DNA of 34,217 bases from Actinomycetota bacterium. Its GTDB lineage: Bacteria; Actinomycetota; Actinomycetes; Streptosporangiales; Streptosporangiaceae. The translations under genes were made by a program, and so were the position numbers. Where the stretch lies: assembly GCA_003168215.1 (NCBI GenBank), contig PMSW01000129.1, positions 4,937 through 39,153 of the forward strand, given 5' to 3'. Positions 10,743-32,494 of the stretch are shown here, piece after piece. The notes beneath the pieces were generated by a model, which was given only the letters and a program-made list of their open reading frames with translations, was not told where the DNA came from and did not search any database. Positions within the stretch are counted from its first letter, which is position 1. Each line of letters opens with the position of its first letter.

Positions 10743-11486
10743 TCAGATGTCTGACGTCCGGATATGTCGATGGACCGCAGTCAGCGGCATCGTCGTGGCG
10801 AGCGCCAGCTGGTACCCGGTCGGTGCAGCGGCTCCGTGCAGGTGCACGGGGACGTCAGGCCAGCGCGGAACCCGGTCCACAATCACCCTTGAGCCACTGA
10901 CGTCCAGCTGGTTCGGCGGTGCCTGAAGTCCGAGCCCGGTCAGCTTCATCGCCGCCTCCTTGCGCGTCCACGCAATGAAGAAAGCCGCCGCACGCTCGGC
11001 CGGCGGCATCCTCGCTGCATGCTCGAGCTCACCGGCGGTCAGTGCGACACCGGCCAGCGCGTCGATGTCGCGATCGGATTCGACACACTCGATGTCGGCG
11101 CCGACGAGGCCGGCCCCGACGACTGCGACCAGGACCCAGTTGCCTGCGTGGGAGACCGAATAGTCAAGGGTCCCGGCGTCGAAGACCGGCCGGCCGTGCA
11201 GGGCGCCGCAGTATCGGCAGACCCGGCTGACGCTGACCTGGCGGGTCGGCAATCCCAGGTAGCGAGAGCCGATCAGCCGCTGTGCCGCCCTGGACGTGAC
11301 GAAGGTGTCCCGGACGTGACGGACCGTCAGGCGCCGGGCGTGCCGGCGCTCGTCGTCGTCGAGCAGGTCCAGCCAGTCGACGCGGCGCCGGATCGGCACG
11401 AGCCAGATATGGCACTCGCCGGGAGCCGGCGCGTCCTCACCCGTTTCAACGGCGGGGCACCGGTAGGCAACCCCGGGCGCGGTCAT
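10743..11486 (-). CDS. Sfp-type 4'-phosphopantetheinyl transferase
   Basis: A 247-residue enzyme that would move the phosphopantetheine arm of CoA onto ACP/PCP domains. Motifs in order: RVCRYCGALHGRP, the Sfp-family Cys-rich segment; DYSVSHAGNWVLVAV; the metal-binding GADIECVESDRD; and FFIAWTRKEAAMKLTGLGL, the WxxKEAxxK motif. The ATG at 11486 overlaps the stop of the protease gene by ATGA, so it is translationally coupled and is the last gene of the minus-strand operon. The locus also has an AcpS-type enzyme (27468-27947). Two types in one cluster suggest carrier proteins with different needs. Confidence 0.93.
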   Translation of the reverse strand: MTAPGVAYRCPAVETGEDAPAPGECHIWLVPIRRRVDWLDLLDDDERRHARRLTVRHVRDTFVTSRAAQRLIGSRYLGLPTRQVSVSRVCRYCGALHGRPVFDAGTLDYSVSHAGNWVLVAVVGAGLVGADIECVESDRDIDALAGVALTAGELEHAARMPPAERAAAFFIAWTRKEAAMKLTGLGLQAPPNQLDVSGSRVIVDRVPRWPDVPVHLHGAAAPTGYQLALATTMPLTAVHRHIRTSDI

Positions 11487-14400
11487 CGCGGCCGGCCGCC
11501 TAATCGCGGCACGGCGGCCGCCCTCGCGGGCCGGCCGGACCACTGGCCAGTACCCGACGGCCGTTCGCCGAGCCCGTGGCCGAGCACCCTGACGGCAGCC
11601 CCCAGCTGCAGGTCCTCGGCAGGTTCGTGCCGCCCTCCGCGACCGTCCCTGCGCGGCTCCAACTCCACCTCGACGTCGGGGTGGACGCCTTGATTCTCCA
11701 GCCCGCGTCCCACGTTGGAGAGGTCGTAGCAGAATTCGGGCTGCGTCGTCACCGTGCCATCAACCAGAGCGCGGCGCGGCCAGGTGGCTATGGTGCCGCC
11801 CCAGGTCCGGCGTCCGACCAGCAGCCCGAGGCCACGATCACGGAACAGGTGAGCGAACAGCTCGCCGTCGGAACCTGTTTCCTCGTTGATCAGTACAACC
11901 ATCGGCCCGCGCGGCGCCTCCGGCGGGTACGGGACCGCGCCGGTCCACCGGCCGTGCTCGGCTCCGCCCCGGCGGCGGGACAACCGGTCCAGCAGCAGTG
12001 GCGAGACGTGGCCGCCGCCGTTGAACCGCACGTCCACGACGAGCCCGTCGCGGTCTAGCTCGGACAGGAAGCCCCGAATGAAGTCGGCATATCCGTCGGC
12101 CGACATGTCCGGCACGTGCAGGTACCCCAGCCGCCCCTCCGACACGGCATGGACGTGGGCGCGATTGCCGTCGACCCAGTCCAGGTAACGCGCACGGGAC
12201 TCATCCGCGACAGCGCGCACGGTGACCCGCCGGCCGGGCGACCCAGCGCGCGCCAGCGTCAGCTCCACTTCGCGCCCGGCCTGGCCGACCAGCAGCTCAC
12301 CCGGCCCCGGCCGGCCGAGCGGCTGACCGTTGACCGCCAGCACCTCATCGCCCGGCCGGATGTCGGTACCCGGCCGGTTGCACGGCGAGGTCGCCGACTC
12401 GTTCCACGAGTCGCCGCGCAGGAGGCCGGCGATTCGCCAGGCTGGCCTCCGGTCGCCGGGTTCGGGCTCGGCCCAGTCGACGCCGAGAAAGCCCTGCCCC
12501 GGCGGCTGCGACGATTCTTGCGGCCGTCCGTGAACCCCGTCGTGACCGTAGTCGCCACCGCGTTCGTAGGCGTGTGAACTCGCCAGCTCGCCCTGTAGCT
12601 CCCACAGCAGATCGGACAGCTCTGACCGGCAGCCGACCAGCTCGAGGAGCGAGAAGTACCGCTCGTACATCGCGTCCCAGTCCAGGTCCGACATCGCCTC
12701 GTCCCAGAACGCCTCCCGCTGCAGTCGCCATGCCTCGCGGAACATCTGGTGCCATTCCGTCGCCGGCCGCACCGCCACCCGTACCCGGTTCAGGTCGAGC
12801 CAGCCGCTCGGGCGCCCGGCCGCCGCCCACGGCACGTCCTGCTCGGACGCCTTGTCGGAGTCGGCGTCGGCGGCGAGCACCCGCAATCGGGTACCGCTGC
12901 GGTACAGCACCGTGCGGGACCGGGCGTCGGTGCTGAGCTCGTCCACGCCGTCCAGGTAGTCCGCCGTTACCTCGCCAGTGGCCAGGTTCACCGCCGTGAC
13001 GGTTCCCTCGGGATCGCGGCCGCCCGTGGCCGGGTCCGGCGCGGCGACCGGGACCCGAAGCAGCAGCACCCGGTCCGGCAGGCCGAGGACGGTCGCATAC
13101 CGGCCCTCTGCCACCGGCAATGCGACCACCCGCCGGGCGATGCCGGGGAATTCGATGTCGGTCACCGGCGAGGCGTCCGGCGCCTCGGCGGGCAGCGGCG
13201 CTCCGGGCCCGAAGGGCGATGGCTCGCGCGCGCGCAGGGTCACCAGGTAGGGACGTGCGCCGAAGGGGAATCCGACGTCGAACTGCACCTGGTCGAGATC
13301 CGGCGTCAGATCGCGCTGGCCGATGAAGTACAAGTAGCGCCCGGCCGGGTCGAAGGCCGGCCGGCAATCCCGGAAAACCGGCTCGGTGACCGCGAAGGTA
13401 CGGCCGGTCCGCGCCTCGACGACCTTGATCGCCGAGGTCCGCGCGGTGTCCGGATAGGTGTAGGCCAACCATCGCCCGTCGGACGACCAGGCCAGATCCT
13501 CGATCCGCTCGTGCGCGGTGGCGTCCACCAGCCGTGGCGTCGGCTCGTCCGCGGCGGTGTCCAGCAACCATAGCTGCTGGCGGTTGGTCGCGAACGCCAC
13601 CTGCCCGGTCGCGGGCGAGGCCAGCAGTTCGGTGACGCAGCCGATCCCCTCCAGGGAGATTTCGGTCGCGGGCGCGGGGGAATCGACCGGCAGTAGCACC
13701 AGGTGCTCGGCAGGACGCGAATCGGCGGCGGCGGCGACCAGGCGCGTGCCGTCGGCCAGCCGGTTGAGGAAGGAGTAGCGCACCCCGTCCGCCGTGCCGT
13801 GCTGCCGCACCGGGCCGGACCAGGGCGCGAAGGTGAATGCCTTGCCGCGTGCCACCACTGCCAGCTCAGCGCCGTCCGGGCTCAGCCTGGCGCCGTCCAG
13901 GTAGTCGGCCGCCGCGACGAATCGCCGCGCCCGCTGGATCTGCGAGCTAGCCAGCTGCACGTCGATCGGCCGGGCCCGGCCATCGGCCGGGTCGAGCAGG
14001 TACACCCGCGCGCCGGCCTGGTAGACCAGCCGCCGTCCGTCCGTGGCTAGGTTGCGCGCGTAGTGATGTCGGTGATCGCTGTGACTGAGCAGGTCCGAAC
14101 CGTCCGGCAACACCGAGTACACGTTCGCAGTTGCCTCGTGGTCACTGAGGAAGTAGACGCGGTCACCGACCCAGCATGGGTCGACCAGGTTTCCCGGCGG
14201 CAATACGGGTCGTCGGAACGGCGCCTCTGCTGCGGTACTCAGCCAGAGCTGGCCGGCCGCGCCGCCGCGGTACCGCTTGCGCCGGGCCGGATCGGCGATG
14301 CTGCGCCCGAGCGCGATCCCGCCGGCCGGGCCGAAAGACACCGAGCTGGCTGCGCCCCACGGCAGCAGCCTGCTCGGGCCGCCATCGGGCGACACGGCGA

Positions 14401-14755
14401 AGAGGCGGTAGCCGAACGCGGCCGGCTGCCCGGCAGTGCTGGCGTACAGGACTTCGCCGGTGCCCGGATGCCAGCCGACCACCGAACAGCGAGCCTGATA
14501 GGTCAGCCGTCGCGCGGTGCCGCCGGATGTCGGCAGCACGTAGACCTCTGCCGGGCCGTCGTTCTGACAGCAGAACGCCACCCGATCACCATCGGGCGAC
14601 AGCCGGGGACGGGTGGCCTGCGACATGCCGGAGGTGAGCCGGCCCGCCGGCCCGCCAGCGGCCGGGACCTGCCACAAGTCGTCCTCGCAGCAGAAGACCA
14701 CGGAGTCACCGCTGATCGTGGGGTGCGCCAGGTACCCGGCGGCCGGACCGGTCAT
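11483..14755 (-). CDS. Tricorn-type S41 serine protease
   Basis: A 1,090-residue cytosolic protease. The N-terminal about 600 residues are beta-propeller repeats (repeated LSPDG, SPDGxxLA and FDPAGRYLYF blades). The core follows with ASSHAYERGGDYGHDG, equivalent to the tricorn SHAYE catalytic His motif, a PDZ domain (IRPGDEVLAVNGQPLG), and the S41 segment DVRFNGGGHVSPLLLDRL, with the nucleophile Ser in NEETGSDGELF. Length and order match tricorn protease homologs. It overlaps the upstream GNAT gene and the downstream PPTase gene by ATGA. Tricorn proteins normally degrade peptides from larger proteases; in this operon, trimming or releasing a modified peptide is an inferred role. Confidence 0.93.
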   Translation of the reverse strand: MTGPAAGYLAHPTISGDSVVFCCEDDLWQVPAAGGPAGRLTSGMSQATRPRLSPDGDRVAFCCQNDGPAEVYVLPTSGGTARRLTYQARCSVVGWHPGTGEVLYASTAGQPAAFGYRLFAVSPDGGPSRLLPWGAASSVSFGPAGGIALGRSIADPARRKRYRGGAAGQLWLSTAAEAPFRRPVLPPGNLVDPCWVGDRVYFLSDHEATANVYSVLPDGSDLLSHSDHRHHYARNLATDGRRLVYQAGARVYLLDPADGRARPIDVQLASSQIQRARRFVAAADYLDGARLSPDGAELAVVARGKAFTFAPWSGPVRQHGTADGVRYSFLNRLADGTRLVAAAADSRPAEHLVLLPVDSPAPATEISLEGIGCVTELLASPATGQVAFATNRQQLWLLDTAADEPTPRLVDATAHERIEDLAWSSDGRWLAYTYPDTARTSAIKVVEARTGRTFAVTEPVFRDCRPAFDPAGRYLYFIGQRDLTPDLDQVQFDVGFPFGARPYLVTLRAREPSPFGPGAPLPAEAPDASPVTDIEFPGIARRVVALPVAEGRYATVLGLPDRVLLLRVPVAAPDPATGGRDPEGTVTAVNLATGEVTADYLDGVDELSTDARSRTVLYRSGTRLRVLAADADSDKASEQDVPWAAAGRPSGWLDLNRVRVAVRPATEWHQMFREAWRLQREAFWDEAMSDLDWDAMYERYFSLLELVGCRSELSDLLWELQGELASSHAYERGGDYGHDGVHGRPQESSQPPGQGFLGVDWAEPEPGDRRPAWRIAGLLRGDSWNESATSPCNRPGTDIRPGDEVLAVNGQPLGRPGPGELLVGQAGREVELTLARAGSPGRRVTVRAVADESRARYLDWVDGNRAHVHAVSEGRLGYLHVPDMSADGYADFIRGFLSELDRDGLVVDVRFNGGGHVSPLLLDRLSRRRGGAEHGRWTGAVPYPPEAPRGPMVVLINEETGSDGELFAHLFRDRGLGLLVGRRTWGGTIATWPRRALVDGTVTTQPEFCYDLSNVGRGLENQGVHPDVEVELEPRRDGRGGRHEPAEDLQLGAAVRVLGHGLGERPSGTGQWSGRPARAAAVPRLGGRPR

Positions 14756-15336
14756 GAGGCCTGATTCGCCTTCGCCCGGATCCGCTCGGCGAGGTCCCGC
14801 CGGCGTTGCGCCACCTTGAGATCCTGGATGCGCGCGTCATCCTCGGTGTCGGTCCAGAACATCGCGGTGCGCCACTGCCCGACCGTGTAGGAGTCGAACT
14901 CGCACCGGACCCGGGAGGCGGCAGCCAGTGACTCGGCCGATTGCAGCATGGTGTTGTGATCGAGCACCTGATTGATGATGACCTGCATGTTCAGCTCCGA
15001 GCGCAGGTAGTGCAACGCCGCGCGCACTGCCGTGATGCCGAACCCGCCACGAAACTTGGGCAGGACGCCGAAGGACAGCTCGCAGCTCTGGCTGCGCCAG
15101 TCGATGGTGGTGATCCAGGCGAAGCCGACCGTTTCGTCATTCGGCCCGCACAACGTGAATATCTGCTTGACATGGTGTTCCTCGGCGATGGTTCGGCGCT
15201 GGTTGGCGAGCAGGGCGTCGTCAGCGGTGGACACCGCGAAGTCGGTCAGGTTCGCCTGGAATCGCGTCTCGCGCAGCAGCCCGGTACGGGCTGCTATGTC
15301 ATCGAGGGTGAAGTGTCTCAAGGTCACGAACGACAT
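14752..15336 (-). CDS. GNAT-like N-acyltransferase (fourth of four)
   Basis: A 194-residue protein of RimJ/RimL-like GNAT type. It contains VGFAWITTIDWRSQSCELSFGVLPKFRGGFGITAVRAALHYLRSEL; the R/GxGxxA-like acyl-donor loop is GGFGITA. The helix and strand MQVIINQVLDHNTMLQSAESLAA closes the fold. A Lys/Arg-rich tail follows. The ATG at 15336 has GGGGGA upstream and overlaps the previous gene by 13 bases; a longer in-frame start at 15432 lies inside that gene and lacks domain content. Acyl donor and acceptor are unknown. The operon head (lysine-rich peptide) makes a lysine acceptor a reasonable guess. Confidence 0.8.
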   Translation of the reverse strand: MSFVTLRHFTLDDIAARTGLLRETRFQANLTDFAVSTADDALLANQRRTIAEEHHVKQIFTLCGPNDETVGFAWITTIDWRSQSCELSFGVLPKFRGGFGITAVRAALHYLRSELNMQVIINQVLDHNTMLQSAESLAAASRVRCEFDSYTVGQWRTAMFWTDTEDDARIQDLKVAQRRRDLAERIRAKANQAS

Positions 15337-15773
15337 AGGTCCCCCACTGTCGCGAAATACACGTGAACGTCCTGGTACTGGCCAGTCTGGTAACGGTGAC
15401 CGCGCAACGTGCCGGTGCGGTGGAAGCCGCAACCGTTGAACGTGCTCTCGGCCGCGCTGCCGGACGGCACCATGGCCACATACGAGGTGCAGCGTTGATA
15501 CGAGCCGAGGAACGTCAGGAACTCGGTCATCAGATCGGGATCAGCCGAGGTCGTCGCGACCGTGGCCTGGCGCGGCTGCTCGCTGTTAGGCACGAACCCC
15601 AGCAGCGCCTGCCCACGGCGGAACACATGGGCACCCAGCCGGGTCAGCTCACCCGCGATCGCCATGTCGTTCTGGGTCACCGGGTCGACGCCGAGGAAGC
15701 CGCGTGCGCCGTCCGGCGTGGCCCGCAGCGCTGCCGCCGCAGCTGGCGGGTCCAACCGCTCGAGGTCAGTCAC
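15324..15773 (-). CDS. GNAT-like acyltransferase (third of four, divergent)
   Basis: A 149-residue protein whose end GCGFHRTGTLRGHRYQTGQYQDVHVYFA is the usual GNAT C-terminal strand pair (GFxxxGTLRxHxYxxGxYxDxxxY). The middle QPRQATVATTSADPDLMTEFLTFLG replaces the normal donor-binding loop and no clear RxxGxG/A motif is seen, so it may be a short or inactive GNAT. The GTG at 15773 overlaps the upstream stop by 8 bases (GTGACTGA). Its position between other GNAT genes suggests tandem duplication followed by divergence, or subunits of one complex. Confidence 0.65.
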   Translation of the reverse strand: MTDLERLDPPAAAAALRATPDGARGFLGVDPVTQNDMAIAGELTRLGAHVFRRGQALLGFVPNSEQPRQATVATTSADPDLMTEFLTFLGSYQRCTSYVAMVPSGSAAESTFNGCGFHRTGTLRGHRYQTGQYQDVHVYFATVGDLCRS

Positions 15774-16227
15774 GACGGACCGCCGCCCAGATCTCGCGTG
15801 GCACGGGCCTGCCGTCGAACCAGACGGCGCTCGGAATCGTCGCCTCGCGCTGGAGTCCGGCCCGTTCGCAGAGGTAGGGCGGCGGGTGTGTCGCGGGGGT
15901 GACCCAGCCATAGACGCGCCGCAGGCTGAGCGTCCGGAAGCCGTACGCAACGGCAGCCGAGATCAGCAACTCCGCCGAGTCGACCGCCTCGCGCCGTACC
16001 CCGATCTCCAAGCGTGCCCTGCGATGCACCCAGTCGACGTCGCAGTAGCGGACGAAGCCCGTGCCGGGCGCCACGCACAGCTCCGACGTCTCGTCCGACG
16101 GCGGCCCGACCGTGGCCGGCTCAGCCAGCACGGGCCAGTTGGGCAAGGGCAGCCCCAGCAGCTCGCCGGACAGCCATGTCCCGGACAGCAGCTCCAGGTC
16201 GCCGGCGCGATATCCCCTGAGCATCAT
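15766..16227 (-). CDS. GNAT-like acyltransferase (second of four)
   Basis: A 153-residue protein. It begins MMLRGYRAGDLELL, a standard GNAT first strand, and contains GTGFVRYCDVDWVHRRARLEIGV, equivalent to the central strands. AELLISAAVAYGFRTLSLRRVYGWVTPATHPPPYLCERAGLQREATI is the typical helix, strand and end of a RimL-like fold. The donor P-loop is poorly conserved. Start ATG overlaps the upstream stop by ATGA. Specific substrate unknown. Confidence 0.72.
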   Translation of the reverse strand: MMLRGYRAGDLELLSGTWLSGELLGLPLPNWPVLAEPATVGPPSDETSELCVAPGTGFVRYCDVDWVHRRARLEIGVRREAVDSAELLISAAVAYGFRTLSLRRVYGWVTPATHPPPYLCERAGLQREATIPSAVWFDGRPVPREIWAAVRRD

Positions 16228-16754
16228 GATGTCAGCGCCCAGATCCGCGCGAAGAAAACGTATCCGTAGCGCTGGCCTCCGTGCCGGACGACGCTGGCCA
16301 GGGTGCCCTCCTCGGTGAGTCCCAGCGAGCGGGCGAAGGCCAGTCCGCGGCCGTCGAACTCGCCGACCTGGACGGCGAGGCGCACCAGTTCCTTCTTCCA
16401 GGTGAGCGCCCGGACGATCTCTTCGAACGCCGAGTGCCACCAGGCATTCGGCGCCGCGGCCCGCAAGCGCAGGTGCAACTGGTAGTGACAGCCGTGCTCA
16501 CCGCCGAAGCCCTCGAGGGCGTACAGGCCGGCCGGCTCGTCGTCGGCGAGCAGCAGCCGGGTGTCCGCGCCGACCAGTTTCCGGATCTCCCACTCCGACC
16601 TGGTGTCCGGTTCGGCAGTGCGGAAGAAGAAATCAGGCTCGCTGAAGAACGCCAGCACGTCGTCGTAATCCGAGTCTGAGCACGCCCGGGCAGACCAGGC
16701 GGGAGCGCCGGTGGCGGGCCGCGATGCCGGTGCGCGGAGCACGGTCGATGTCAC
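16224..16754 (-). CDS. GNAT-like acyltransferase (first of four)
   Basis: A 176-residue protein with a GNAT outline: an N-terminal strand and helix (SARACSDSDYDDVLAFF), LLLADDEPAGLYALEGFGGEHGCHYQLHLRL, a helix with AFEEIVRALTWKKELVRLAVQV and the closing FDGRGLAFARSLGLTEEGTLASVVRHGGQRYGYVFFARI. The end is the best match to the family. The GTG at 16754 overlaps the stop of the dehydrogenase gene by GTGA. It is the first of four such genes directly after the acyl-CoA dehydrogenase. Confidence 0.72.
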   Translation of the reverse strand: MTSTVLRAPASRPATGAPAWSARACSDSDYDDVLAFFSEPDFFFRTAEPDTRSEWEIRKLVGADTRLLLADDEPAGLYALEGFGGEHGCHYQLHLRLRAAAPNAWWHSAFEEIVRALTWKKELVRLAVQVGEFDGRGLAFARSLGLTEEGTLASVVRHGGQRYGYVFFARIWALTS

Positions 16755-17887
16755 GATGCCAGCCCTTGCCGCGCCGGGACGGGCGCGATGTTGAGGCGGA
16801 GGATGTTGCTGGTGCCATCCATGAATTCGAAGGCGAACACGTCCCGGCACCATTTCTCCAGCAGCGGGTGTTCGGCCAGCGAGCCCGGACCGAGTGCGTA
16901 CTCGGCCCACCGGGTGGCCTGTACGGCGAGGTCGGTTACGTGCAGCTTGGCGATCGAGGGTGACCGACGGTCGCCAGGGGAGCCGTCGATCGTGGCCGCG
17001 ACGTCGTAGAGCAAAGCCCGGGCGGCTGCCAGCCGCGCCGACATCAAGTCAAGCCCGGACCAACCGGGACGCTGCTCGCGGACGTAGCCCCAGGCCGCGA
17101 ACCCCACTCCGAGCGCCTGTGCCGCGATCTGCGCCCGCATGACGTTGAAGACGCGGCCGGCGCCCCACATGCCACGCCGGGAGGCCGGCAGGTGGCTGCC
17201 GAGCAGCTCGTCCGGCAGGATGCGTACCCCGTCGAAGGCCAGCCCGCTGATGCAGGCGCCGCGCAGGCCGATCATGTCGAGCAGGTGCGCGTCGAAGCCG
17301 GCGGCCGGGAGCTGGACGAGGGCGGCGCGAATGGTCAGGGCCGAGGGGCCGGTGCGGGCGAACACCACGCCGATGCCGCCCCGGACGGCGTTGGCGACGT
17401 AGCGCTTGGCGCCGTTGAGCCGCCAGCCGCCGCCGGGATCCTTATCGAGGCGGGTCTGCATGGCCGAGGCATCGCTGCCTCGGGCCTCCTCCGTCATGGC
17501 GAAGAAGGTCCAGGTCCGGCCGTCGGCGATGGCGCGGTAGAACCGCTCCTGCTGATCGTCGCTGCCGAGCGCATCGACGGCAAGCCCTGCCAGCGACGCC
17601 CCGGTGTTCGCGCTCAGTATTCCGGCGTCGCCGCAGGCGAGCTCGGCGTTGGCGACGACACGGGCCAGGCAGCTGCCGGTGTAGCTTGCCCCGAACAGTG
17701 AATCGTCGCAGTCCCGGAATCGCCTGGGCGTACTGGCGGTGCGCAGCGACGTCAAGGTCTCCGAGTCCAGGTGTGCAGCCATCTCGAGGGGCCGGGCGTC
17801 GACGGCCAGCGCTCGGGAGCGCAGATCGACTGCCACCTCCCGGCACGTGCTCCGCAGTTCCCTGAGCGCGGGCTCCAGCTCGGTCAT
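16751..17887 (-). CDS. Acyl-CoA dehydrogenase-family flavoprotein, catalytic Glu replaced by Asp
   Basis: A 378-residue ACAD. FAD/substrate-contact motif FFAMTEEARGSDASAMQTRL, then GGWRLNGAKRYVANAVRGG (beta domain), then the C-terminal helical domain ending EFMDGTSNILRL. In most ACADs the catalytic base is the Glu of the YEGT motif; here it is Asp357. The arm B paralog (24844-25983), which aligns from the first residue without a gap and has almost the same length, keeps Glu358. The substrate is probably ACP- or peptide-bound rather than a free CoA ester, inferred from context (compare the prolyl-carrier oxidases RedW and PltE). It starts by TGATG overlap with the half-size ACAD-like gene just upstream. 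Confidence 0.88.
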   Translation of the reverse strand: MTELEPALRELRSTCREVAVDLRSRALAVDARPLEMAAHLDSETLTSLRTASTPRRFRDCDDSLFGASYTGSCLARVVANAELACGDAGILSANTGASLAGLAVDALGSDDQQERFYRAIADGRTWTFFAMTEEARGSDASAMQTRLDKDPGGGWRLNGAKRYVANAVRGGIGVVFARTGPSALTIRAALVQLPAAGFDAHLLDMIGLRGACISGLAFDGVRILPDELLGSHLPASRRGMWGAGRVFNVMRAQIAAQALGVGFAAWGYVREQRPGWSGLDLMSARLAAARALLYDVAATIDGSPGDRRSPSIAKLHVTDLAVQATRWAEYALGPGSLAEHPLLEKWCRDVFAFEFMDGTSNILRLNIAPVPARQGLAS

Positions 17888-18471: not shown

Positions 18472-18562
18472 CAGGTCCTCCCTGCGGCGTGCCCGCCCGG
18501 CGCTCGCGGGGCGGCCATACGAGTGCCCAGCCCGTGGCTCGGCGATCATGCAATGTGCATTC

Positions 18563-18738: not shown

Positions 18739-18759
18739 CAGAAATCACCTCGCTCCCTG

Positions 18760-18949: not shown

Positions 18950-18982
18950 CCGTGACTGCCGGACGTGCCGAAGGAGGGCCAG

Positions 18983-24847: not shown

Positions 24848-25983
24848 CCGGCATGGACGCGCGGCTGCAGGCGATCAGGAACGCCACCCGGGTGGCGTCG
24901 GAAGACCTGCGTGCCCGCGCACTGTCGATAGACGCCGATCCGGACGCGATGGAGGCCCACCTCGACTCCCCGGTGTTCGCGTTGATGCGCGAGGTCGGCA
25001 CGCCCGACGCCTACCGCGAATCCCACTCCGCCAGCGGGGAGTTGCTGAAGCACGGTGCCTCCTGCCTGGAGAACGCTGTCGGGACCGTGGAACTGGCCAG
25101 GGGCGACGCCGCGGTGGCGCTAGCCTGCCCGTCACCCGCGCTGGCCGGCGTCATCGTCGACCTGCTCGGCACCGAGAAACAGCAGGAGCTGTTTTACACC
25201 CGCCTGCACGGCGGCCGGACCTGGACCTTCTTCGCCATGACCGAGCCCCGTCACGGTAGCGACGCGACCGCGATGGAGACCCGCCTGGAGCGCGACGGCG
25301 CCGGGGACTGGCTGCTCTCGGGCCGCAAGCTCTACATCGGCAACGGCGCCCGCGGCGGCATCGGGGTGGTGTTCGGCCGCACCGGCCCGTCCCCGCTGTC
25401 CATCCGCGCGGCGCTGATCGAGTTGCCCGCGGCCGGCTGGCAGGGCAAGCGGGTGGACACGATTGGCCTGCGGGGCGCCTACCTCAGCGAGCTGAGCTTC
25501 GACAAGGTGCCGGTGCGCAGCGACATGCTGCTCGGCCAGCACCTGCCCGCCACCCGGCGCGGCATGTGGGGCGCGATCAAGACCTTCAACGCGATGCGGG
25601 TGCAGGTCGCCGGAGCCGCCGTCGGCACCGCGCTGGCCATGACCGAGTACGTCGCCGAGCATCACAAGAATGCCACCGGCGCCGACCTTGTCCTGGCCCG
25701 GGCACAGGCCGCCCGTGAACTGGTATTCGAGGCGGCAGCGCGGACCGATCGGGACCCGGAGCGGAGTTACCTGTCGTGCGTGGCCAAGCTCGGCGCCGCC
25801 CGGGTCGCTGTGCAGACAGCGCGCTGGGCGTCCAGCGCCCTCGGTCCGGCCGGATTGCTGGAGCACCCGCTGCTGGAAAAGTGGATCCGCGACAGTTGCG
25901 GTTTCGAGTTCATGGAGGGCACCGGCAACATCCAGCGGCTGCACGTGTCCCGGGGCTACCAAGCCGGCGATGCCAGTGTGTGA
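24844..25983 (+). CDS. Acyl-CoA dehydrogenase-family flavoprotein (arm B copy)
   Basis: A 379-residue ACAD with FFAMTEPRHGSDATAMETRL, DWLLSGRKLYIGNGARGG, a helical C-terminal domain and EFMEGTGNIQRL. The catalytic Glu358 is present, unlike in the arm A paralog. The GTG start at 24844 (GTGA overlap with the half-size gene) makes the first 13 residues align without gaps with the paralog, which supports it over the ATG at 24853. Probable role: desaturating the carrier-bound acyl or aminoacyl chain together with the half-size subunit. Confidence 0.9.
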   Translation: MTGMDARLQAIRNATRVASEDLRARALSIDADPDAMEAHLDSPVFALMREVGTPDAYRESHSASGELLKHGASCLENAVGTVELARGDAAVALACPSPALAGVIVDLLGTEKQQELFYTRLHGGRTWTFFAMTEPRHGSDATAMETRLERDGAGDWLLSGRKLYIGNGARGGIGVVFGRTGPSPLSIRAALIELPAAGWQGKRVDTIGLRGAYLSELSFDKVPVRSDMLLGQHLPATRRGMWGAIKTFNAMRVQVAGAAVGTALAMTEYVAEHHKNATGADLVLARAQAARELVFEAAARTDRDPERSYLSCVAKLGAARVAVQTARWASSALGPAGLLEHPLLEKWIRDSCGFEFMEGTGNIQRLHVSRGYQAGDASV

Positions 25984-26028
25984 TCTCGATCGGCCCGATG
26001 CTGGACGCCTGTGCGCAGGGAGGGCCTG

Positions 26029-27396
26029 ATGACTACCCGCAGCCTGACGGAATCGCCCGATGCCGCCCGGGACGATACGAGCGGACAGCACGGCGATGTC
26101 TCATATCAGCGGATCATCAGGGTGTCACTGCCGATGGTGGCGTCCGCCGTCGTCGCGGTCGTGATGCAGGTGGTGGTCCTGGCCCTGATCGGCCACATGG
26201 GCGGTTCCGCGCTCTACGTGCGCTCCGTGTACACCCCGGTCTCCTATCTGTTCCTGGCCATGACGACGGGCCTGGCCGTGACCGTGCAGGTGTCGGTCGC
26301 GCAGGCGTGCGGTCGCGGCGCCCCGCAGGCGAGCGCGGACTACCTCGGCAGCATCGCCCGCGCGGGTGTGGCCGTCTTCGTCGTGCTCGGCGGGCTGCTG
26401 ATGGCGCTGGCCGGACCGCTGTCCAGCGCCATCGGCGTCGCTGGCGGCTCGCGCGGGACCTTCCGCGTGTTTCTGGCGGCCATGGCGGTCGCCACGGTGT
26501 TCGGCATGCTGGGCGAGCTCTGCTCCGGGGTGCTGCGCGGGGCCGGCCGCACCGGGATCGCGGCCATCATCACCGCGACGTACGTGACGATCAACCTGGG
26601 CATCGTGAGTGCCGACCTGGCCCTGCACGGCGGCCTGATGGTGGTTCCGATCGCGGCCGGCGCCGCTGGTGCCGTCGAGATCGCGCTCGGCTTCGGCGCC
26701 CTGGTGCACGTCGGCCTGGTGCGCCCCCGCCGCCTTACTGCCTGGCGCCCGGACACCTGGCGGATGCTGTTGCGGATCGGGCTTCCGGTCGGCATCACCT
26801 CGGTCGTGCTGGCCGTGGTCGACCTCGTGCTGCTGCGGATCGTCGGGCCGGCCGGCCAGCAGGCGGTGGCCGGCTTCAATGTCGGCTACACCATCCAGGC
26901 GGCTGTCATCGTGCCGGCGGTCGGCCTGGGTTCGGCGATAGCGGTCCTGATGAATCAGAGCCTGCCCGGGCACGGCCTGGCTGCCTACCGGGTGGTGTTC
27001 CGCCGCGGACTGCTGCTGGCGACGGCCGGCTACGCGTCGGTGACGGTGGCCCTGATCCTGCTCGGCGGACCGCTGGCCAGCGTCATGTCAGGTAACCCCG
27101 CCGTGGCGGAGCAGGCCAGGCACTTCGTCATGATCGTCGGCCCGACCTTCGGCTGCACCGGCCTCACCCTGGTCGTGCTGACCATCCTGGAACAGGTCGG
27201 TCACGGACGGATCGCGGTGCTGATGAACTCGGGCTACTTCCTCGTCGTTCTGGTCATCGGGGCGCTGGCGGTGCACGCCCATCACCAGGTCACCGGCTTG
27301 TACTGGACGATGGCCATCGCCGCTGTAATCGGCCTGGTCACCGGCATGCCCATCACCGTGCGGGCGGGCAGGAACCCCCGGGTCCTGCGTCGTTAG
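26029..27396 (+). CDS. MATE-family efflux transporter
   Basis: A 455-residue membrane protein with about 12 hydrophobic segments and the two-lobe pattern of the MATE family. The first lobe begins YQRIIRVSLPMVASAVVAVVMQVVVLALIGHMG. The ATG at 26029 has GGGAGG 5 bases upstream; an in-frame ATG at 26011 precedes that site. It lies 45 bases after the ACAD gene in the same direction, so it probably exports the arm B product or an intermediate. The substrate is inferred from context only. Confidence 0.88.
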   Translation: MTTRSLTESPDAARDDTSGQHGDVSYQRIIRVSLPMVASAVVAVVMQVVVLALIGHMGGSALYVRSVYTPVSYLFLAMTTGLAVTVQVSVAQACGRGAPQASADYLGSIARAGVAVFVVLGGLLMALAGPLSSAIGVAGGSRGTFRVFLAAMAVATVFGMLGELCSGVLRGAGRTGIAAIITATYVTINLGIVSADLALHGGLMVVPIAAGAAGAVEIALGFGALVHVGLVRPRRLTAWRPDTWRMLLRIGLPVGITSVVLAVVDLVLLRIVGPAGQQAVAGFNVGYTIQAAVIVPAVGLGSAIAVLMNQSLPGHGLAAYRVVFRRGLLLATAGYASVTVALILLGGPLASVMSGNPAVAEQARHFVMIVGPTFGCTGLTLVVLTILEQVGHGRIAVLMNSGYFLVVLVIGALAVHAHHQVTGLYWTMAIAAVIGLVTGMPITVRAGRNPRVLRR

Positions 27397-27423
27397 GGCT
27401 GCACAACTGCGCACCGCACTGAT

Positions 27424-27457
27424 GGATCCCGGCGAAGAAGGGATCCCGGCGAAGAAG
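27424..27457 (+). repeat. 17-bp tandem duplication carrying the acpS ribosome-site region
   Basis: GGATCCCGGCGAAGAAG occurs twice without a gap (27424-27440, 27441-27457). The second copy leads directly into GGGAG, the Shine-Dalgarno site used by the AcpS-type gene, so the duplication gives a near-copy of the translation-initiation region. Confidence 0.85.
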
Positions 27458-27467
27458 GGAGTTGGTC

Positions 27468-27947
27468 ATGAGGATCGGCGTGGATCTCCTGTCCATCTCA
27501 CGGTTCACCCGGATTGCCGAGCACCCCCGCTATCGCTCGATCCTGTTCACCGAGGCCGAGCTGGCGGAGGCACAGCAGCTCGGTTCCGAGCGGCTGGCCG
27601 AGCGGCTGGCCGGCCGGTTCTGCGCCAAGGAAGCGACCTGCAAGGTCCTGCGCCGCGGCTTCGGGCAGGGCCTGCGCTGGCGTGACATCGAAGTGACCAG
27701 CGACCGCTGGGGCGCGCCCTCGGTGACGCTGACCGGCGGGGCACGCAAGATGGCGGTCGAAGCCGGACTGCGGGAGATCTCGGTGACCCTCACCCATCAG
27801 GCCGATCTGGTGGTGGCAGTCGCGGTGGCCATGCCGGCAGCGCCCGCTGGGCCGGCGGCGTCCGCTGGCGGGCGCAACCTCCGCGGCATGATGCCGCGGC
27901 GAAGGGCACGGCACGAGGCCGCAGCGGACGCTGCGCTGCGGCGATAA
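27468..27947 (+). CDS. AcpS-type holo-[acyl-carrier-protein] synthase
   Basis: A 159-residue enzyme of the trimeric AcpS family. The metal-binding Asp6 is in MRIGVDLLSISRF (family GIDIVEIxR) and Glu55 in GRFCAKEATCKVL (family RFAAKEAxxKAL). The last about 35 residues, Ala/Arg-rich, extend past the usual end of about 120. The ATG at 27468 has AAGGGAG with 6 bases of spacing. Last gene of arm B, 71 bases after the MATE gene. It would activate the locus ACPs, alongside the Sfp-type enzyme of arm A. Confidence 0.9.
   Translation: MRIGVDLLSISRFTRIAEHPRYRSILFTEAELAEAQQLGSERLAERLAGRFCAKEATCKVLRRGFGQGLRWRDIEVTSDRWGAPSVTLTGGARKMAVEAGLREISVTLTHQADLVVAVAVAMPAAPAGPAASAGGRNLRGMMPRRRARHEAAADAALRR
27918..27942 (+). 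terminator. Possible terminator at the 3' end of arm B
   Basis: GCCGCAG and CTGCGGC arms with an 11-base loop overlap the end of the AcpS gene, and a second small hairpin (CCGCAG/CTGCGG, 27981-27999) lies in the convergent 76-base gap before the LuxR gene's end. Neither has a strong T-run. Confidence 0.35.
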
Positions 27948-28023
27948 TCTGTCCATCTGGCCGTCCGCGCCCGGCATGTTCCGCAGGGCGAAGCTGCGGG
28001 AGCCGGCCGTGGAAACGTTCCGG

Positions 28024-29094
28024 TCAGGCGCTTACCGCGGTCGGGACGCTGAGCTGCCTGGCCGCCTGCACACCGGCCTGGAACCGGCTCACCGAATCGA
28101 GGTTCTGCAGCAGTGCGGCGATGTGACGCCGGCAGGTACGCACCGACATCCTGAGCCGGCGGGCCACCACCTCGTCGGTGAGACCCTGTGCCATCAGCCG
28201 CAGGATGGACTGCTGAAGGTTGTCCAGAGCGTCGGCGTATCCGGGTTCCCCGGAGGCGAAGGCGGTCGCGCCCTCCCACAGCTGGTCGAAGAGGTCCACC
28301 ACGAACCGGACCACGGCCTGGTCGCGCACCCGGCGGGCGCCAGGGCTGCCGCCGACTTCGGAGAGGTTCAGCATGACCGCCAGCGAGCCGTCGAACACCA
28401 CGGCCGCTTGCGGGACACGGCTGAGCGTGCGGATCTCCGCGCCGCCGTCGACAAGCCGCTTGGCCTTGGCGCGCGAACTGAAACCGGCCCTGCTGCTATG
28501 CGGGCTGATCACCCTGACCGCGACGCCGCGATCCAGCACGTTGTAGCAGGTCTCCAGCAGCTCATCGAGCAGTTCCTCGTCGGCGTGGCTGGGACGCAGC
28601 ACGAGCAACTCGTGCCGGCACACCTCGCTCGCCACCTTGAACAGCCCGCGGATCTCGGCAACTCCGTCCAGACCGTCGATGGAACCGCACTGCGGCCGGG
28701 CGATCGCCTCGATCTGTCCCCGCAGCTGGTCGGTGAGATCCCGGCGCCGATAGGTCTCCCGCTCGAGCGGTGAGATCAGCCGCGTGACTGCGAGTTCCGG
28801 GTCCGTCGGCAGCAACCGGTTGCCGCCAAGGCCGTCAGTCTGCAGCAGGCGCAGTTCGATCAGCTTCGAGACCGCCGTGCAGATCTCTTGCACGGGCCGA
28901 CCCACCTCGGCCGCTACCGCGTCAAGCGAGCCGATCGCTCCCCTGCGGGCGGCGTGCCGGTACACGTCTACGGCCGGATCGCTGACGATCGCGCCGGCCT
29001 GGCCGGCGGCTTTGGCAGTGCTTTCGCTGACAAGCTGGCCGCGGTCATCCGCAGCGTCGGTCCAGCTCATCTGCGCCAGAGAACTCGCCGTCAT
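28024..29094 (-). CDS. LuxR-type regulator with TrmB-like N-terminus
   Basis: A 356-residue transcription factor. The N-terminal winged-helix-like region is ARRGAIGSLDAVAAEVGRPVQEICTAVSKLIELRLL, the middle is a sensor-type domain, and the C-terminal LuxR HTH (about 300-352) reads ILRLMAQGLTDEVVARRLRMSVRTCRRHIAALLQ. This order is frequent in actinomycete cluster regulators. The ATG has AGGAG 7 bases upstream. It faces arm B's end and diverges from arm C, placing it to control arm C and perhaps all arms. Target sites are not identified. Confidence 0.87.
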   Translation of the reverse strand: MTASSLAQMSWTDAADDRGQLVSESTAKAAGQAGAIVSDPAVDVYRHAARRGAIGSLDAVAAEVGRPVQEICTAVSKLIELRLLQTDGLGGNRLLPTDPELAVTRLISPLERETYRRRDLTDQLRGQIEAIARPQCGSIDGLDGVAEIRGLFKVASEVCRHELLVLRPSHADEELLDELLETCYNVLDRGVAVRVISPHSSRAGFSSRAKAKRLVDGGAEIRTLSRVPQAAVVFDGSLAVMLNLSEVGGSPGARRVRDQAVVRFVVDLFDQLWEGATAFASGEPGYADALDNLQQSILRLMAQGLTDEVVARRLRMSVRTCRRHIAALLQNLDSVSRFQAGVQAARQLSVPTAVSA

Positions 29095-29386: not shown

Positions 29387-29656
29387 ATGACGAGTGTGCA
29401 CATTCCCCGCTCCTTTCGGGACACCTTGCTGGCTCACCTGCCATATGCGGAATCCAGCAACCTGACCGCGAAGGACGATCTCGCCGCGCTGGGTCTGGAC
29501 TCGATGGGCGTGATCCAGTTGCTGGCCGATCTCGAGGACAGCCTCGGCCTGGAGATGCCCGACGACATGCTGACGGAGGAGACCTTCGCAACGGCGGGGT
29601 CGCTGTGGCAGACCGTGTCAGGTCTGCTCGGCCCCGCGCAGAGCGCCCATGTCTGA
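29387..29656 (+). CDS. Acyl carrier protein (arm C)
   Basis: An 89-residue ACP with Ser39 in ALGLDSMGVIQLLADLEDSLGLEMPDDML. AGAGG lies 8 bases before the ATG. Its end overlaps the ligase start by 8 bases, and ligase and decarboxylase follow, the gene trio of carrier-bound amino-acid decarboxylation. Probable role: to carry the amino-acid starter unit. Confidence 0.93.
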   Translation: MTSVHIPRSFRDTLLAHLPYAESSNLTAKDDLAALGLDSMGVIQLLADLEDSLGLEMPDDMLTEETFATAGSLWQTVSGLLGPAQSAHV

Positions 29657-31289
29657 GGTAGCCGGCGCGCCGCGGCGCACCGCCCTGCTACCGGTCCGCA
29701 TAGAGCCGCAGCGCACCGCCCTGCTACCGGTCCGCATAGATCAGCTTCTCGGGCGTGGTGAGCCCGATCGGCCCGCGCTGACCTACAAGTCGCAGACGTT
29801 GACCTACCGCGAGCTGAGCGAGCGGGTCGCGAGATTCGCCGCAGGGCTGCACCGGCTGGGCATCCGGCGCGGCGACCGGGTCGCGGTGTACGCCGAGAAG
29901 CGGATCGAAACGGTCGTCGCACTGCTAGCGACGTCAGCTGCCGGCGCGGTGTTCGTACCGGTCAACCCGCTATTTAAGGTCCGCCACCTCACCCGGCTGC
30001 TCGCCGACTGCGCGGCCCGCGCCGTGGTCACCACGGCCGAGCGGGCGGAGGTGGTCAGGGAATCGCTCGCGGCGAACACCGCCGTCGAGCACGTGCTGAT
30101 CATCGGCGACCCCGGCAAGTCGCGGCTGCCCGGCGGCCCCTGGCAGGTCAGCGGCTGGGATCGGGTTGCGGACGCCGAGCCGGTGCCCGTCCCGGACGGC
30201 CAGGCCATCATCGACGACGACATCGCCGCCATCCTCTACACCTCCGGCAGCACCGGCGGACCGAAGGGCGTGGTGCTCACGCACCGCAATCTGCTGGCCG
30301 GCGCCGCCAGCGTGGCCGGCTATCTCGGTCACACCAGCGATGACGTGGTGCTGTCGGTGCTACCGATCAGCTTCGACGCCGGGCTCAGCCAGCTCACCAC
30401 GTCCTTCATCGCCGGAGCGCACGTGGTGCTGATGAACTACGTGCTGCCCCGCGAGGTCGTCCGGCTGTGCGCTGAGCACCAGGTCACCGCGCTCACCTGC
30501 GTCCCGCCGCTGTGGCTGCAGCTGGCCGGGCTGACCTGGCCGGAGGAGTCGGTCGCGAATCTGCGCTACTTCGCCAACACCGGCGGGCGGATGCCCATCG
30601 TCACCCTCGGCGTTCTGCGCAAGCTGTACCCGCATGCGGAGCCCTACCTGATGTACGGCCTGACCGAGGCATTCCGGTCGACCTATCTCGAGCCGGCCGA
30701 AGCGGACCGCCGGCCGGATTCGATTGGCAAGGCGATCCCGAACGCCGAGGTGCTCGTAGTGCGCCCGGACGGTTCGCTCTGCGATCCCGGCGAGCACGGC
30801 GAACTGGTACATCGCGGCGCGCTGGTCGCGCTGGGGTACTGGAACGATCCCGAACGCACCGCGGAGCGCTTCAAACCGGCCCCCGGAGCGAGCAGCAGCA
30901 CGGCCCGGCCCGAGATCGCGGTGTGGTCAGGCGACACTGCCTACTGCGACGAGGACGGCTATCTGTACTTCGTCGGCCGCAGCGACGACATGATCAAGAC
31001 CTCGGGCTACCGGGTCAGTCCGACCGAGATCGAAGAGGCTGCCTACGCCACCGGCCTGGTCGGCGAGGTGGTGGCGCTCGGGATCGGTGATGAGCGGCTG
31101 GGGCAGCACATCGTGCTGATGGTGAAGTCCGCGGCTTGCGACGTTACCCACGAAGGTCTGGTCAGGGCGCTCGCGCAGGATCTGCCCAAGTACATGCTTC
31201 CCCAGCGCACCCAGATCCTGCCGGAACTGCCCCGTTCCATGAACGGCAAATTCGACCGGGTCGAGTTGCGCCGGATGGAGTCGCGGTGA
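29649..31289 (+). CDS. AMP-forming acyl/aminoacyl ligase for ACP loading
   Basis: A 546-residue ANL-superfamily enzyme. A3-type P-loop LYTSGSTGGPKGVVLTHRN, A5-type MYGLTEAF, A7 SGDTAYCDEDGYLYFVGRSDDMIKTSGYRVSPTEIE and the catalytic Lys in MNGKFDR are all intact, so it should adenylate a carboxylate and thioesterify it. Order ACP-ligase-PLP decarboxylase resembles BtrI/BtrJ/BtrK and also the ligase/decarboxylase pair associated with exosortase A loci; no exosortase is seen here. The N-terminus carries an in-frame 12-residue duplication (RTALLPVRI twice). The substrate is unknown; an amino acid is expected from the decarboxylase. Confidence 0.9.
   Translation: MSEVAGAPRRTALLPVRIEPQRTALLPVRIDQLLGRGEPDRPALTYKSQTLTYRELSERVARFAAGLHRLGIRRGDRVAVYAEKRIETVVALLATSAAGAVFVPVNPLFKVRHLTRLLADCAARAVVTTAERAEVVRESLAANTAVEHVLIIGDPGKSRLPGGPWQVSGWDRVADAEPVPVPDGQAIIDDDIAAILYTSGSTGGPKGVVLTHRNLLAGAASVAGYLGHTSDDVVLSVLPISFDAGLSQLTTSFIAGAHVVLMNYVLPREVVRLCAEHQVTALTCVPPLWLQLAGLTWPEESVANLRYFANTGGRMPIVTLGVLRKLYPHAEPYLMYGLTEAFRSTYLEPAEADRRPDSIGKAIPNAEVLVVRPDGSLCDPGEHGELVHRGALVALGYWNDPERTAERFKPAPGASSSTARPEIAVWSGDTAYCDEDGYLYFVGRSDDMIKTSGYRVSPTEIEEAAYATGLVGEVVALGIGDERLGQHIVLMVKSAACDVTHEGLVRALAQDLPKYMLPQRTQILPELPRSMNGKFDRVELRRMESR
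29667..29738. repeat. 36-bp tandem duplication at the ligase 5' end
   Basis: Two 36-base units (29667-29702 and 29703-29738) differ in only two positions near their start and share a 30-base identical core. The frame is kept, adding twelve residues before the AMP-binding domain. Probably recent slippage or duplication. Confidence 0.85.
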
Positions 31290-32494
31290 CCGCGACCGTC
31301 GTCGCCGGCCATCAGCTTCTGGTGGGCGGGATCGCCGTGGACCGGCTGGCAGCCAGGGTCGGTGCGACGCCTTTCTTCGCTTACGAACGCGGGCTGATCA
31401 CCGAGCGGGTGACCGCGGTCCGGTCGGCGCTGCCCGCTGGCATCCACCTGAGCTACGCCGTCAAGGCGAACCCGATGCCGGCGCTGCTGCAGCACATGAG
31501 CGGCCTGGTAGACGGCTTCGACGTGGCGTCCGCCGGCGAGCTGCGGCATGCGCTCGACACCGGGACGCCTGCGGCAAGGATCAGCTTCGCCGGACCCGGC
31601 AAGACCACCGCCGAGCTTGCCCAGGGGGTGGCTGCCGGGGTGACGATCGAGCTCGAGTCGGCCACCGAGCTCACCCGGGTGCGGCAGATCAGCCAGTCGC
31701 TGGGCATTCGAGGACGGGTCGCGATCCGCGTCAATCCCGACTTCACGGTCCGCGGCGCCGGCATGAAGATGGGCGGCGGCCCTCAGCAGTTCGGCATCGA
31801 TGCCGAACTGGTCCCCGCGGTCCTTGCCGACCTGGCCGCGGCGGAGCTGGACTTCCAGGGATTCCACGTCTTCGCCGGTTCGCAGAATCTGCATACGCAG
31901 AGCATCTGCGAGGCCCAGCGCAGGGCAGTCGATCTGGTCATCGAACTGGCGGCCAGCGCGCCCGGGCCAGTGCGTTACCTCAACCTCGGCGGCGGCTTCG
32001 GCATTCCGTATCACGAACGTGACCGCCCGCTGGATATCGCCCCGATCGGTGCGAACCTGGCGGAGCTGCTCGTGACCAAGGTCGGGCCCAGGCTTCCGGC
32101 CGCGCGGGTGGTCATCGAACTCGGCCGGTATCTGGTCGGCGAGGCCGGCGTCTACCTCACCCGGGTGATCGACCGCAAGGAGTCGCGCGGCAAGACTTTC
32201 CTGATCGTCGACGGGGGCATGCACCACCAGCTGGCGGCGTCGGGCAACCTCGGCCAGGTAATACGGCGCAACTACCCGATCGCGGTAGCGAGCAGGCTGC
32301 ACGAAGCGCCGGCCGAGACGGTCACCGTCGTGGGCTGCCTGTGCACGCCGCTCGATCTGCTCGGCACCGACGTGGTGCTCCCGCGGGCGCAGATCGGGGA
32401 CCTGATCGCGGTGTTCCAGGCCGGTGCGTACGGCCTGACCGCGAGCCCGACTGCGTTCCTCGGCCATCCCGCGCCGGCTGAGGTCCTCGTCTGA
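31286..32494 (+). CDS. PLP-dependent decarboxylase, fold type III (second copy)
   Basis: A 402-residue paralog of 21777-23078. PLP Lys60 in LSYAVKANPMP, Gly-rich loop NLGGGFGIPY, and the C-terminal active-site motifs GCLCTPLDLLG and GAYGLTASPTAFLGHP. The CTPLD form in place of CESGD is shared with carrier-acting and exosortase-associated decarboxylases. The GTG at 31286 overlaps the ligase stop by GTGA; the open frame upstream of it lies inside the ligase gene and is not used. It would decarboxylate the aminoacyl group on the arm C ACP to give an amine starter. Confidence 0.88.
   Translation: MTATVVAGHQLLVGGIAVDRLAARVGATPFFAYERGLITERVTAVRSALPAGIHLSYAVKANPMPALLQHMSGLVDGFDVASAGELRHALDTGTPAARISFAGPGKTTAELAQGVAAGVTIELESATELTRVRQISQSLGIRGRVAIRVNPDFTVRGAGMKMGGGPQQFGIDAELVPAVLADLAAAELDFQGFHVFAGSQNLHTQSICEAQRRAVDLVIELAASAPGPVRYLNLGGGFGIPYHERDRPLDIAPIGANLAELLVTKVGPRLPAARVVIELGRYLVGEAGVYLTRVIDRKESRGKTFLIVDGGMHHQLAASGNLGQVIRRNYPIAVASRLHEAPAETVTVVGCLCTPLDLLGTDVVLPRAQIGDLIAVFQAGAYGLTASPTAFLGHPAPAEVLV

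Follow-up and report, generated by a model that had tools for sequence, protein, structure and literature searches.

The window, here the whole 34,217-nucleotide stretch of DNA from an Actinomycetota bacterium of the family Streptosporangiaceae, carries a gene for a small lysine-periodic peptide and three groups of genes (Table 1). Arm A consists of four GNAT-like proteins, a tricorn-type protease, a phosphopantetheinyl transferase, and an ACAD pair. Arm B contains condensation, KAS III-like, PLP decarboxylase, second ACAD pair, and export genes, and arm C contains Asp-type loading and PKS genes. The gene inventory and coordinates of the first-pass annotation, from the phosphopantetheinyl transferase through the second PLP decarboxylase, were confirmed by open reading frame and domain analysis. 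Its two PLP enzymes, two ACPs, and one ligase each have domain or profile matches, and its two phosphopantetheinyl transferases (Sfp-type and AcpS-type) and MATE exporter match Pfam.

Table 1. Features of the window, with position, strand, basis of assignment, and counterparts in other clusters
Feature	Position	Strand	Basis and counterparts
Sfp-type phosphopantetheinyl transferase	10743-11543	(-)	PF01648; same position in type I clusters, 44-53% identity
Tricorn-type protease	11483-14755	(-)	Peptidase_S41, Tricorn_C1, PDZ_Tricorn domains; 51-62% in all other peptide clusters
GNAT1	14752-15336	(-)	PF13302; 52-68% in all other peptide clusters; start inferred from alignment
GNAT2, GNAT fold	15324-15776	(-)	Predicted structure, pLDDT 86; matches SpeG/RimJ-type GNATs
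GNAT3, weak GNAT	15766-16227	(-)	Orthologs 48-61%; one ortholog against PF13302, E 0.047, below cut-off
GNAT4, GNAT fold	16224-16754	(-)	Low-confidence model, pLDDT 63, best matches GNATs; orthologs 44-59%
ACAD1, acyl-CoA-dehydrogenase-type flavoenzyme	16751-17887	(-)	PF02770/PF00441; 59-67% in types I and II
ACADs1, small ACAD-like partner	17887-18549	(-)	Weak PF00441, just below cut-off; 43-58% in types I and II
Lys-period-4 peptide, 29 aa, 7 Lys	18649-18738	(-)	ORF with AGGTGA upstream; counterparts in eight other clusters
Free-standing condensation protein, degenerate C-terminal carrier-like domain	18965-20839	(+)	PF00668
KS3a, KAS III-like	20836-21780	(+)	PF08541, motifs (active Cys and His present); 63-66% in type III clusters
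PLP1, fold-III PLP decarboxylase	21777-23078	(+)	PF02784/PF00278; 74-77% in types II and III
ACP1	23075-23338	(+)	PF00550; 74% to type III, 66-70% to type II ACP
KS3b, possible cysteine-less KAS III relative	23343-24233	(+)	Weak profile match; 55% in type III
ACADs2, small ACAD-like partner	24230-24832	(+)	PF00441; 58-60% in type III
ACAD2	24829-25983	(+)	PF00441/PF02770; 73-74% in type III
MATE exporter	26011-27396	(+)	PF01554; 60-66% in type III
AcpS-type phosphopantetheinyl transferase	27462-27947	(+)	PF01648; 65-67% in type III
LuxR/TrmB-like regulator	28024-29094	(-)	Weak GerE/HTH; position conserved in types I and II
ACP2	29387-29656	(+)	PF00550
AMP ligase, VinN-like, predicted L-Asp loading via beta-carboxylate	29649-31289	(+)	VinN best match
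PLP2, BtrK-like aminoacyl-ACP decarboxylase	31286-32494	(+)	Best PDB match BtrK, E 9e-79; 69-73% in type I
KS-KR-ACP PKS, first half	32525-34216	(+)	Pfam; second half on contig C122:96-2105

The translation of the reverse-strand ORF 18738-18649, MSKSAVKAAVKAATKAAAKSAVKAAAKAA, is a member of a conserved peptide family, and the lysine-periodic peptide first read from the window alone is real. The family spans at least nine actinomycete gene clusters, and the peptides of these nine have lysine at all 134 period-4 sites, with 7 to 24 repeats and with residues between the lysines that diverge from peptide to peptide. They are built of tandem tetrads, K-A-A-S and variants, which differ inside a single peptide. 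The TBY4 peptide is rich in glycine and still keeps the period-4 lysines, and cysteine is absent from all nine. The window peptide begins with MSK; the remaining members are repeats along their entire length. Repeat number differs by one unit even between near-identical clusters. Two close peptides, with flanks 93-94% identical, differ at codons by 8 synonymous and 1 nonsynonymous changes, and by this comparison the pair is under purifying selection. A chance origin of the reading frame was rejected, since six lysine codons with a 12-base period are unique to it within the 4.6-Mb assembly and its product recurs across the nine clusters. In type I clusters, the peptide gene lies upstream of the ACP1, ACADs, ACAD, and GNAT genes on the same strand.

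The tricorn-type protease has its catalytic motifs SH, S, and E intact in all seven sequences compared. The four proteins proposed as GNAT-like stand at different levels: GNAT1 alone passes Pfam, GNAT2 and GNAT4 are assigned solely by predicted fold, and GNAT3 is a weak case with its ortholog match below the cut-off. The predicted structure of GNAT2 is nearest to polyamine and ribosomal-protein acetyltransferases, and profile-profile comparison of the four with one another gave signals too weak to serve as evidence of homology. On reading the sequences, the R/QxxGxG/A loop usual for GNATs is missing in GNAT2-4 and altered in GNAT1, and some of the four may therefore be non-catalytic.

The condensation protein retains HxxxD in all eight aligning rows of nine, and its carrier-like region reads GGR[A/M/L/V]L without the serine in 9/9 condensation proteins. 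The KAS III pair of the first-pass annotation holds for KS3a, but KS3b lacks the expected active-site cysteine and has no match in Pfam and NCBIfam searches. PLP1 matches to TIGR03099 and lysA fall below the cut-off. The specificity region of the arm C ligase has VinN (3wv4/3wvn) as its best match; equivalents of VinN Asp230 and Arg331 are conserved in 9/9 ligases, and Thr occupies the place of Ser299. The contig ends inside the PKS gene, whose remainder lies on contig C122 in this assembly; the window covers residues 28-573 of an ortholog and C122 covers residues 589-1282.

Comparison across genomes found arms A and C together with the peptide in six other genomes (type I) and arms A and B together with the peptide in two (type III). 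The co-occurrence anticipated for all three arms thus holds in pairs, but among the genomes seen the complete set is joined in the window alone, and a universal A+B+C cluster was rejected. All nine peptide clusters have GNAT1-4, the tricorn-type protease, an ACP, an ACAD pair, a PLP decarboxylase, and a phosphopantetheinyl transferase. In contrast, GNAT1-4 and the tricorn protease occur in none of the 16 peptide-less relatives examined, a set made up of two type II clusters plus fourteen loci retrieved by means of the dehydrogenase. The type II clusters, in two genomes, have the arm C core without peptide or GNATs, and inspection of the small ORFs between their condensation protein and ACADs1 found no Lys-repeat peptide. 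Modules like arm B are also common without peptide or GNATs. In the plasmid records searched, GNAT1 and the condensation protein had no match. Judged by gene content, the peptide module requires neither arm B nor arm C. Arms A, B, and C are nevertheless, on this comparison, members of one modular pathway family because A and C meet in six other genomes and A and B in two. The conserved gene set appears as such combined with a polyketide arm in type I, with a dehydro-beta-alanine-like arm in type III, and with both in the window.

Dehydro-beta-alanine pathways are known for bolagladins (PMC7756342), AFC-BC11 (PMC12186527), and enamidonin, autucedine, and olenamidonin (PMC11204786). The sections of these reports considered here supply precedent for the loading of Asp, for its decarboxylation, for desaturation by an ACAD, and for amide formation by a KAS III, and in AFC-BC11 a KAS III joins the chain to Lys-CoA (PMC12186527). 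The window shares with them, as far as those sections describe, a VinN-type ligase with the Asp230 and Arg331 equivalents, a free ACP, a BtrK-type PLP decarboxylase, a KAS III-like protein, and an ACAD-type desaturase, the last two recognised by domains and motifs. In contrast, those pathways use an NRPS or Lys-CoA where the window has a ribosomal repeat peptide, and the GNAT quartet and tricorn protease have no mention in the same sections. VinN-type macrolactams with beta-amino acid starters (PMC11284099) similarly have an Asp-type ligase, ACP, and PLP decarboxylase feeding a modular PKS. However, no counterpart of VinK-type transfer or of macrolactam release was identified in the window, and the peptide, GNATs, and tricorn protease are additional.

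Among ribosomal products, goadvionins and lipolanthines (PMC9505594) resemble the proposed pathway in that a dedicated acyltransferase joins a polyketide chain to a ribosomal peptide. They differ in having an avionin ring and a short core after a leader, unlike the leaderless, many-lysine window peptide; no lanthionine enzyme domain was found among the scanned window proteins, and the peptide lacks cysteine. In selidamides (PMC9505594), GNATs acylate Lys/Orn side chains, and GNAT-superfamily proteins adjoin a peptide with Lys/Orn acceptors as in the window. Selidamides, however, have a proteusin-type leader and use fatty acids of primary metabolism (PMC9505594), whereas the window has a leaderless repeat of 29 aa without a long NHLP/proteusin leader, four GNATs, and dedicated carrier pathways. 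A gene-encoded precursor conserved with candidate modifying enzymes, as in RiPPs, is present in 9/9 clusters. No comparable system was found in the literature searched, which covered few subscription papers.

We give a nearly even chance to a pathway in which carrier-bound chains are built, moved by the GNATs onto lysine amines of the peptide, and trimmed by the tricorn protease. The VinN-like ligase would load L-Asp via its beta-carboxylate onto ACP2, and the BtrK-like PLP2 (and PLP1 on ACP1) would decarboxylate it to beta-alanyl-ACP. The ACAD pair would desaturate the carrier-bound beta-alanyl unit, and the KAS III and condensation proteins would form amides. Chain building by KAS III and PKS had been proposed; the PKS is present, but the KAS III protein is probably amide-forming rather than carbon-chain building because arms B and C resemble the VinN/BtrK-type and dehydro-beta-alanine pathways. 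The arm C chain would be extended by the AT-less KS-KR-ACP PKS and a modular PKS with hydroxymalonyl units; with no terminal TE domain, its release would fall to a condensation protein or a GNAT. The GNAT-fold proteins would transfer the carrier-bound acyl chains to lysine side-chain amines along the peptide, an acylation that we infer, and the modified peptide would be trimmed or cut by the tricorn protease and exported. In favour of this pathway stand the invariant lysine period and purifying selection, the restriction of GNAT1-4 and tricorn to peptide clusters, the shared strand of peptide, carrier, ACAD, and GNAT genes in type I, the VinN and BtrK features, the intact protease motifs, and the precedents in dehydro-beta-alanine pathways and selidamides. 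Three observations run against it. The GNAT loop is altered or missing in all four proteins; types I and II share the condensation protein and ACAD1 and type II has no peptide, so both proteins need not act on it; and up to 24 lysines per peptide imply a very large product. Tentatively, and at somewhat below an even chance, the family may be a new class of leaderless ribosomal comb peptide, onto whose evenly spaced lysine amines the four GNATs load dedicated chains, polyketide or dehydro-beta-alanyl, to give a multiply acylated product or a tricorn-cut scaffold.

An unlikely alternative is a scaffold or carrier peptide, pearlin-like or amino-group-carrier-like, whose lysine amines hold intermediates during their assembly or oxidation until tricorn digestion frees a small molecule, with the peptide absent from the final product. 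The protease in every peptide cluster, the polyketide core without peptide, and the drift from 7 to 24 repeats, expected if only lysine capacity matters, agree with it. Pearlin-type peptides gain residues at the C terminus via a tRNA-dependent ligase, but the gene maps of types I and III showed no gene of this kind. Less likely is a multi-core precursor, from which tricorn would release a short acyl-Lys tetrapeptide many times over by cutting between tetrads. Multi-copy precursors are known in cyanobactins and fungal RiPPs, and the tandem tetrads and intact protease motifs fit; however, the tetrads vary within one peptide and only lysine itself is visible as a possible cleavage signal. It is quite improbable that the peptide stays unmodified and serves as a small cationic helper that binds nucleic acid, membranes, or carrier proteins, with the GNATs acting on a small-molecule amine. 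Lys/Ala repeats do resemble histone-like protein tails and the GNAT2 fold points the same way, but lysine keeps its strict period while other residues change, even in the Gly-rich TBY4 peptide, and in 9/9 clusters the peptide is accompanied by GNAT1-4 and tricorn. The earlier alternative of unrelated neighbouring clusters, two or three, is largely refuted and very improbable: the arm C core and modules like arm B can each be found in peptide-less loci, but peptide-bearing arm A accompanies arm C in six genomes and arm B in two, and in the window the genes for the condensation protein, KS3a, PLP1, and ACP1 overlap to form a single transcription unit.

The peptide, GNATs, protease, and carrier-bound acyl machinery together look like an undescribed joining of small-molecule chains to a ribosomal peptide. 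The period-4 lysines beside GNAT1 are easily searched, and the whole family can therefore be mined, with its natural variation in repeat number as a variable for testing. If the lysines are acylated, a leaderless multi-site peptide would join the few known polyketide-RiPP hybrids, and dehydro-beta-alanine chemistry would be linked to ribosomal peptides.

All the elements named in the first-pass annotation are present in the window (G000:C161:4937-39153), within 10743-32494 and slightly outside it, in an assembly of 176 contigs that is 74.6% complete. The peptide central to the proposed acyl-transfer pathway is a 29-aa ORF, and its 12-base period of six Lys codons is unique within this assembly. 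The peptide at the equivalent place in Streptomyces sp. TBY4 is MVKSSGKVSGKKQGKVSGKKQGKVSGKKQGKVA. Counted from the first Lys, every fourth residue is Lys in all nine peptides (107 of 107 sites in seven peptides and 27 of 27 in two further ones), and with Lys randomly placed within each peptide the probability of all sites being filled is 1e-6 for the window and 2e-5 for TBY4. In two close clusters with flanks 93-94% identical, the peptides are one full tetrad apart, and their codon differences comprise eight synonymous and one nonsynonymous. Since the TBY4 peptide has lost the Ala-rich sequence and kept the Lys spacing, the conserved feature seems to be the spacing rather than a helix.

Coordinates of the features discussed
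Feature	Location	Strand	Content
Lys-period-4 peptide	window 18738-18649	-	MSKSAVKAAVKAATKAAAKSAVKAAAKAA; AGGTGA upstream
Condensation protein C	window 18965-20839
AMP ligase Lig	window 29649-31289
C122, other contig of the same assembly	G000:C122:1-34447 (L134, L135)		PKS second half, ACAD, type II TE, hydroxymalonyl-ACP genes, modular PKS, SARP-like regulator
Second condensation protein, G1119	L117:8699-10105	-	far end of type I cluster
ACP/small ACAD/large ACAD/Sfp set, Streptomyces sp. NBC_00868 plasmid	L067:6165-17835

The genomes sampled numbered 1998, in several partly overlapping draws, and beyond the window the gene starts were set by a simple purpose-made gene caller. A search with the acyl-CoA-dehydrogenase-type flavoenzyme ACAD1 led to TBY4, whose contig carries genes of arm A (peptide, GNAT1-4, tricorn-type protease) and arm C (ACP2, Lig, PLP2, PKS). 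The free-standing condensation protein C retrieved seven more Streptomycetaceae genomes, five of them with the peptide, and GNAT1 retrieved two additional peptide clusters. GNAT1-4 and tricorn accompany the peptide in 9/9 clusters, and were found in neither type II cluster nor in fourteen 13-29-kb loci found with ACAD. These counts are given without a p-value, as the sample is non-random (the three queries differ) and related genomes are non-independent; for the two GNAT1-retrieved clusters the independent evidence is confined to the peptide, GNAT2-4 and tricorn.

Type I (TBY4, G1197, G1119, G1104, G1115, G1158; all Streptomycetaceae) has the row peptide, ACP1, ACADs1, ACAD1, GNAT4-3-2-1, tricorn and Sfp, adjoined by C, a regulator, ACP2, Lig, PLP2 and a KS-KR-ACP PKS, with a SARP regulator and an ABC pair between PLP2 and PKS where gene-called. 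G1119, mapped in full, continues with hydroxymalonyl-ACP genes, a type II TE, a second AMP ligase, a modular PKS of ~29 kb without a TE domain by Pfam, and a second condensation protein, whose sole match in the window's genome is weak and is the window's own C. Type II (G1105, G1222) shares C, ACAD1, Lig, ACP2 and the KS-KR-ACP PKS with type I and also has PLP1, several KAS III and two ACAD2; G1222 additionally has PLP2, a modular PKS and hydroxymalonyl genes. The Lys-repeat peptide, GNAT1-4 and tricorn were not found in either cluster. The G1222 C gene (L087) has one TAG inside the match, most of which a shorter 551-aa gene call covers. Type III (G1164, G1191) contains the peptide, KS3a, PLP1, ACP1, KS3b, ACADs2, ACAD2, MATE, GNAT4-3-2-1, AcpS and tricorn, and C, Lig/PLP2/ACP2 and a modular PKS were not found within the 40 kb read. 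A conserved 445-aa protein lies between KS3a and PLP1 in type III (L144/L142-L143) and occurs in the general module too; the window lacks it and has overlapping KS3a and PLP1 genes.

By sequence comparison, the window combines a type I cluster with the arm B found in type III (identities to type III: KS3a 63-66%, PLP1 74-77%, ACAD2 73-74%, MATE 60-66%). Its ACP1 groups with those of types II and III (66-74%), and the peptide-adjacent type I copy is missing. Of the proposed joining of three arms, synteny bears out arm A with C in the six type I genomes and A with B in the two type III genomes; among the genomes sampled, all three combine only in the window. A related KS3a-PLP1-ACP1-KS3b-ACAD module occurs in Streptomyces at large, in most neighbourhoods read (ACAD match at E<=1e-50 in 26/392 genomes), and none of these neighbourhoods contains the peptide, GNAT1-4 or tricorn. 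The NBC_00868 plasmid set adjoins a class I tRNA-ligase-family protein, an N-hydroxylase, a GNAT and a carbamoyltransferase, and is a different use of the ACP/ACAD/Sfp module.

The PKS gene is cut off by the end of the window, which covers ortholog residues 28-573, and C122 begins with residues 589-1282, with ~15 residues missing between the contigs and no sequence overlap. There follow an ACAD, type II TE, FkbH-like protein, ACAD, ACP and 3-hydroxyacyl-CoA dehydrogenase, then a modular PKS; the type II TE, FkbH-like protein, ACAD, ACP and dehydrogenase match G1119 at 60-80%. Given the complementary PKS halves and shared synteny, C122 is probably the continuation of the cluster.

The best match of the Lig specificity region is VinN, with equivalents of Asp230 and Arg331 kept in 9/9 orthologs and Thr at the Ser299 position; PLP2 best matches BtrK. 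Lig also shares ~58% identity with rhizobial-plasmid acyl-CoA ligases named 'exosortase A system-associated', and PLP1 matches an exosortase-associated decarboxylase model below the cut-off; such systems may therefore have an aminoacyl-ACP loading unit in common with the window. For bolagladin, Asp loading and decarboxylation are proposed for BolO/BolC/BolN and N-acylation for a KAS III homologue, and deletion of the ACAD-like bolQ leaves the unit saturated (PMC7756342). For AFC-BC11, carrier-bound Asp loading and decarboxylation were reconstituted in vitro, and a KAS III-like enzyme was assigned release and Lys-CoA coupling (PMC12186527). Enamidonin-type Streptomyces lipopeptides carry the same residue, dehydro-beta-alanine (PMC11204786). 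The KAS III pair had been annotated as chain builders, but by these precedents amide formation is likelier for KS3a, and KS3b is without the KAS III cysteine.

Pfam identifies GNAT1 as a GNAT; for GNAT2 the assignment comes from the predicted fold, as it does with less certainty for GNAT4, and GNAT3 gives a weak match. In our reading of the sequences, the CoA-binding loop is altered or absent in all four. Acyl-ACP-using enzymes such as LuxI-type synthases deviate from this motif too, and ACP-bound donors are thus plausible. C keeps HxxxD in the eight rows aligning at that site, and its C-terminal carrier-like domain has lost the Ser (GGRAL in the window; Ser-less in 9/9 relatives aligned); the protein has the appearance of a degenerate NRPS module. 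A GNAT1 search of the window's own family found no match in its 340 other genomes, while six Streptomycetaceae carry type I; the window's genome therefore probably lies outside the Streptomycetaceae, and the gene set has probably moved between families.
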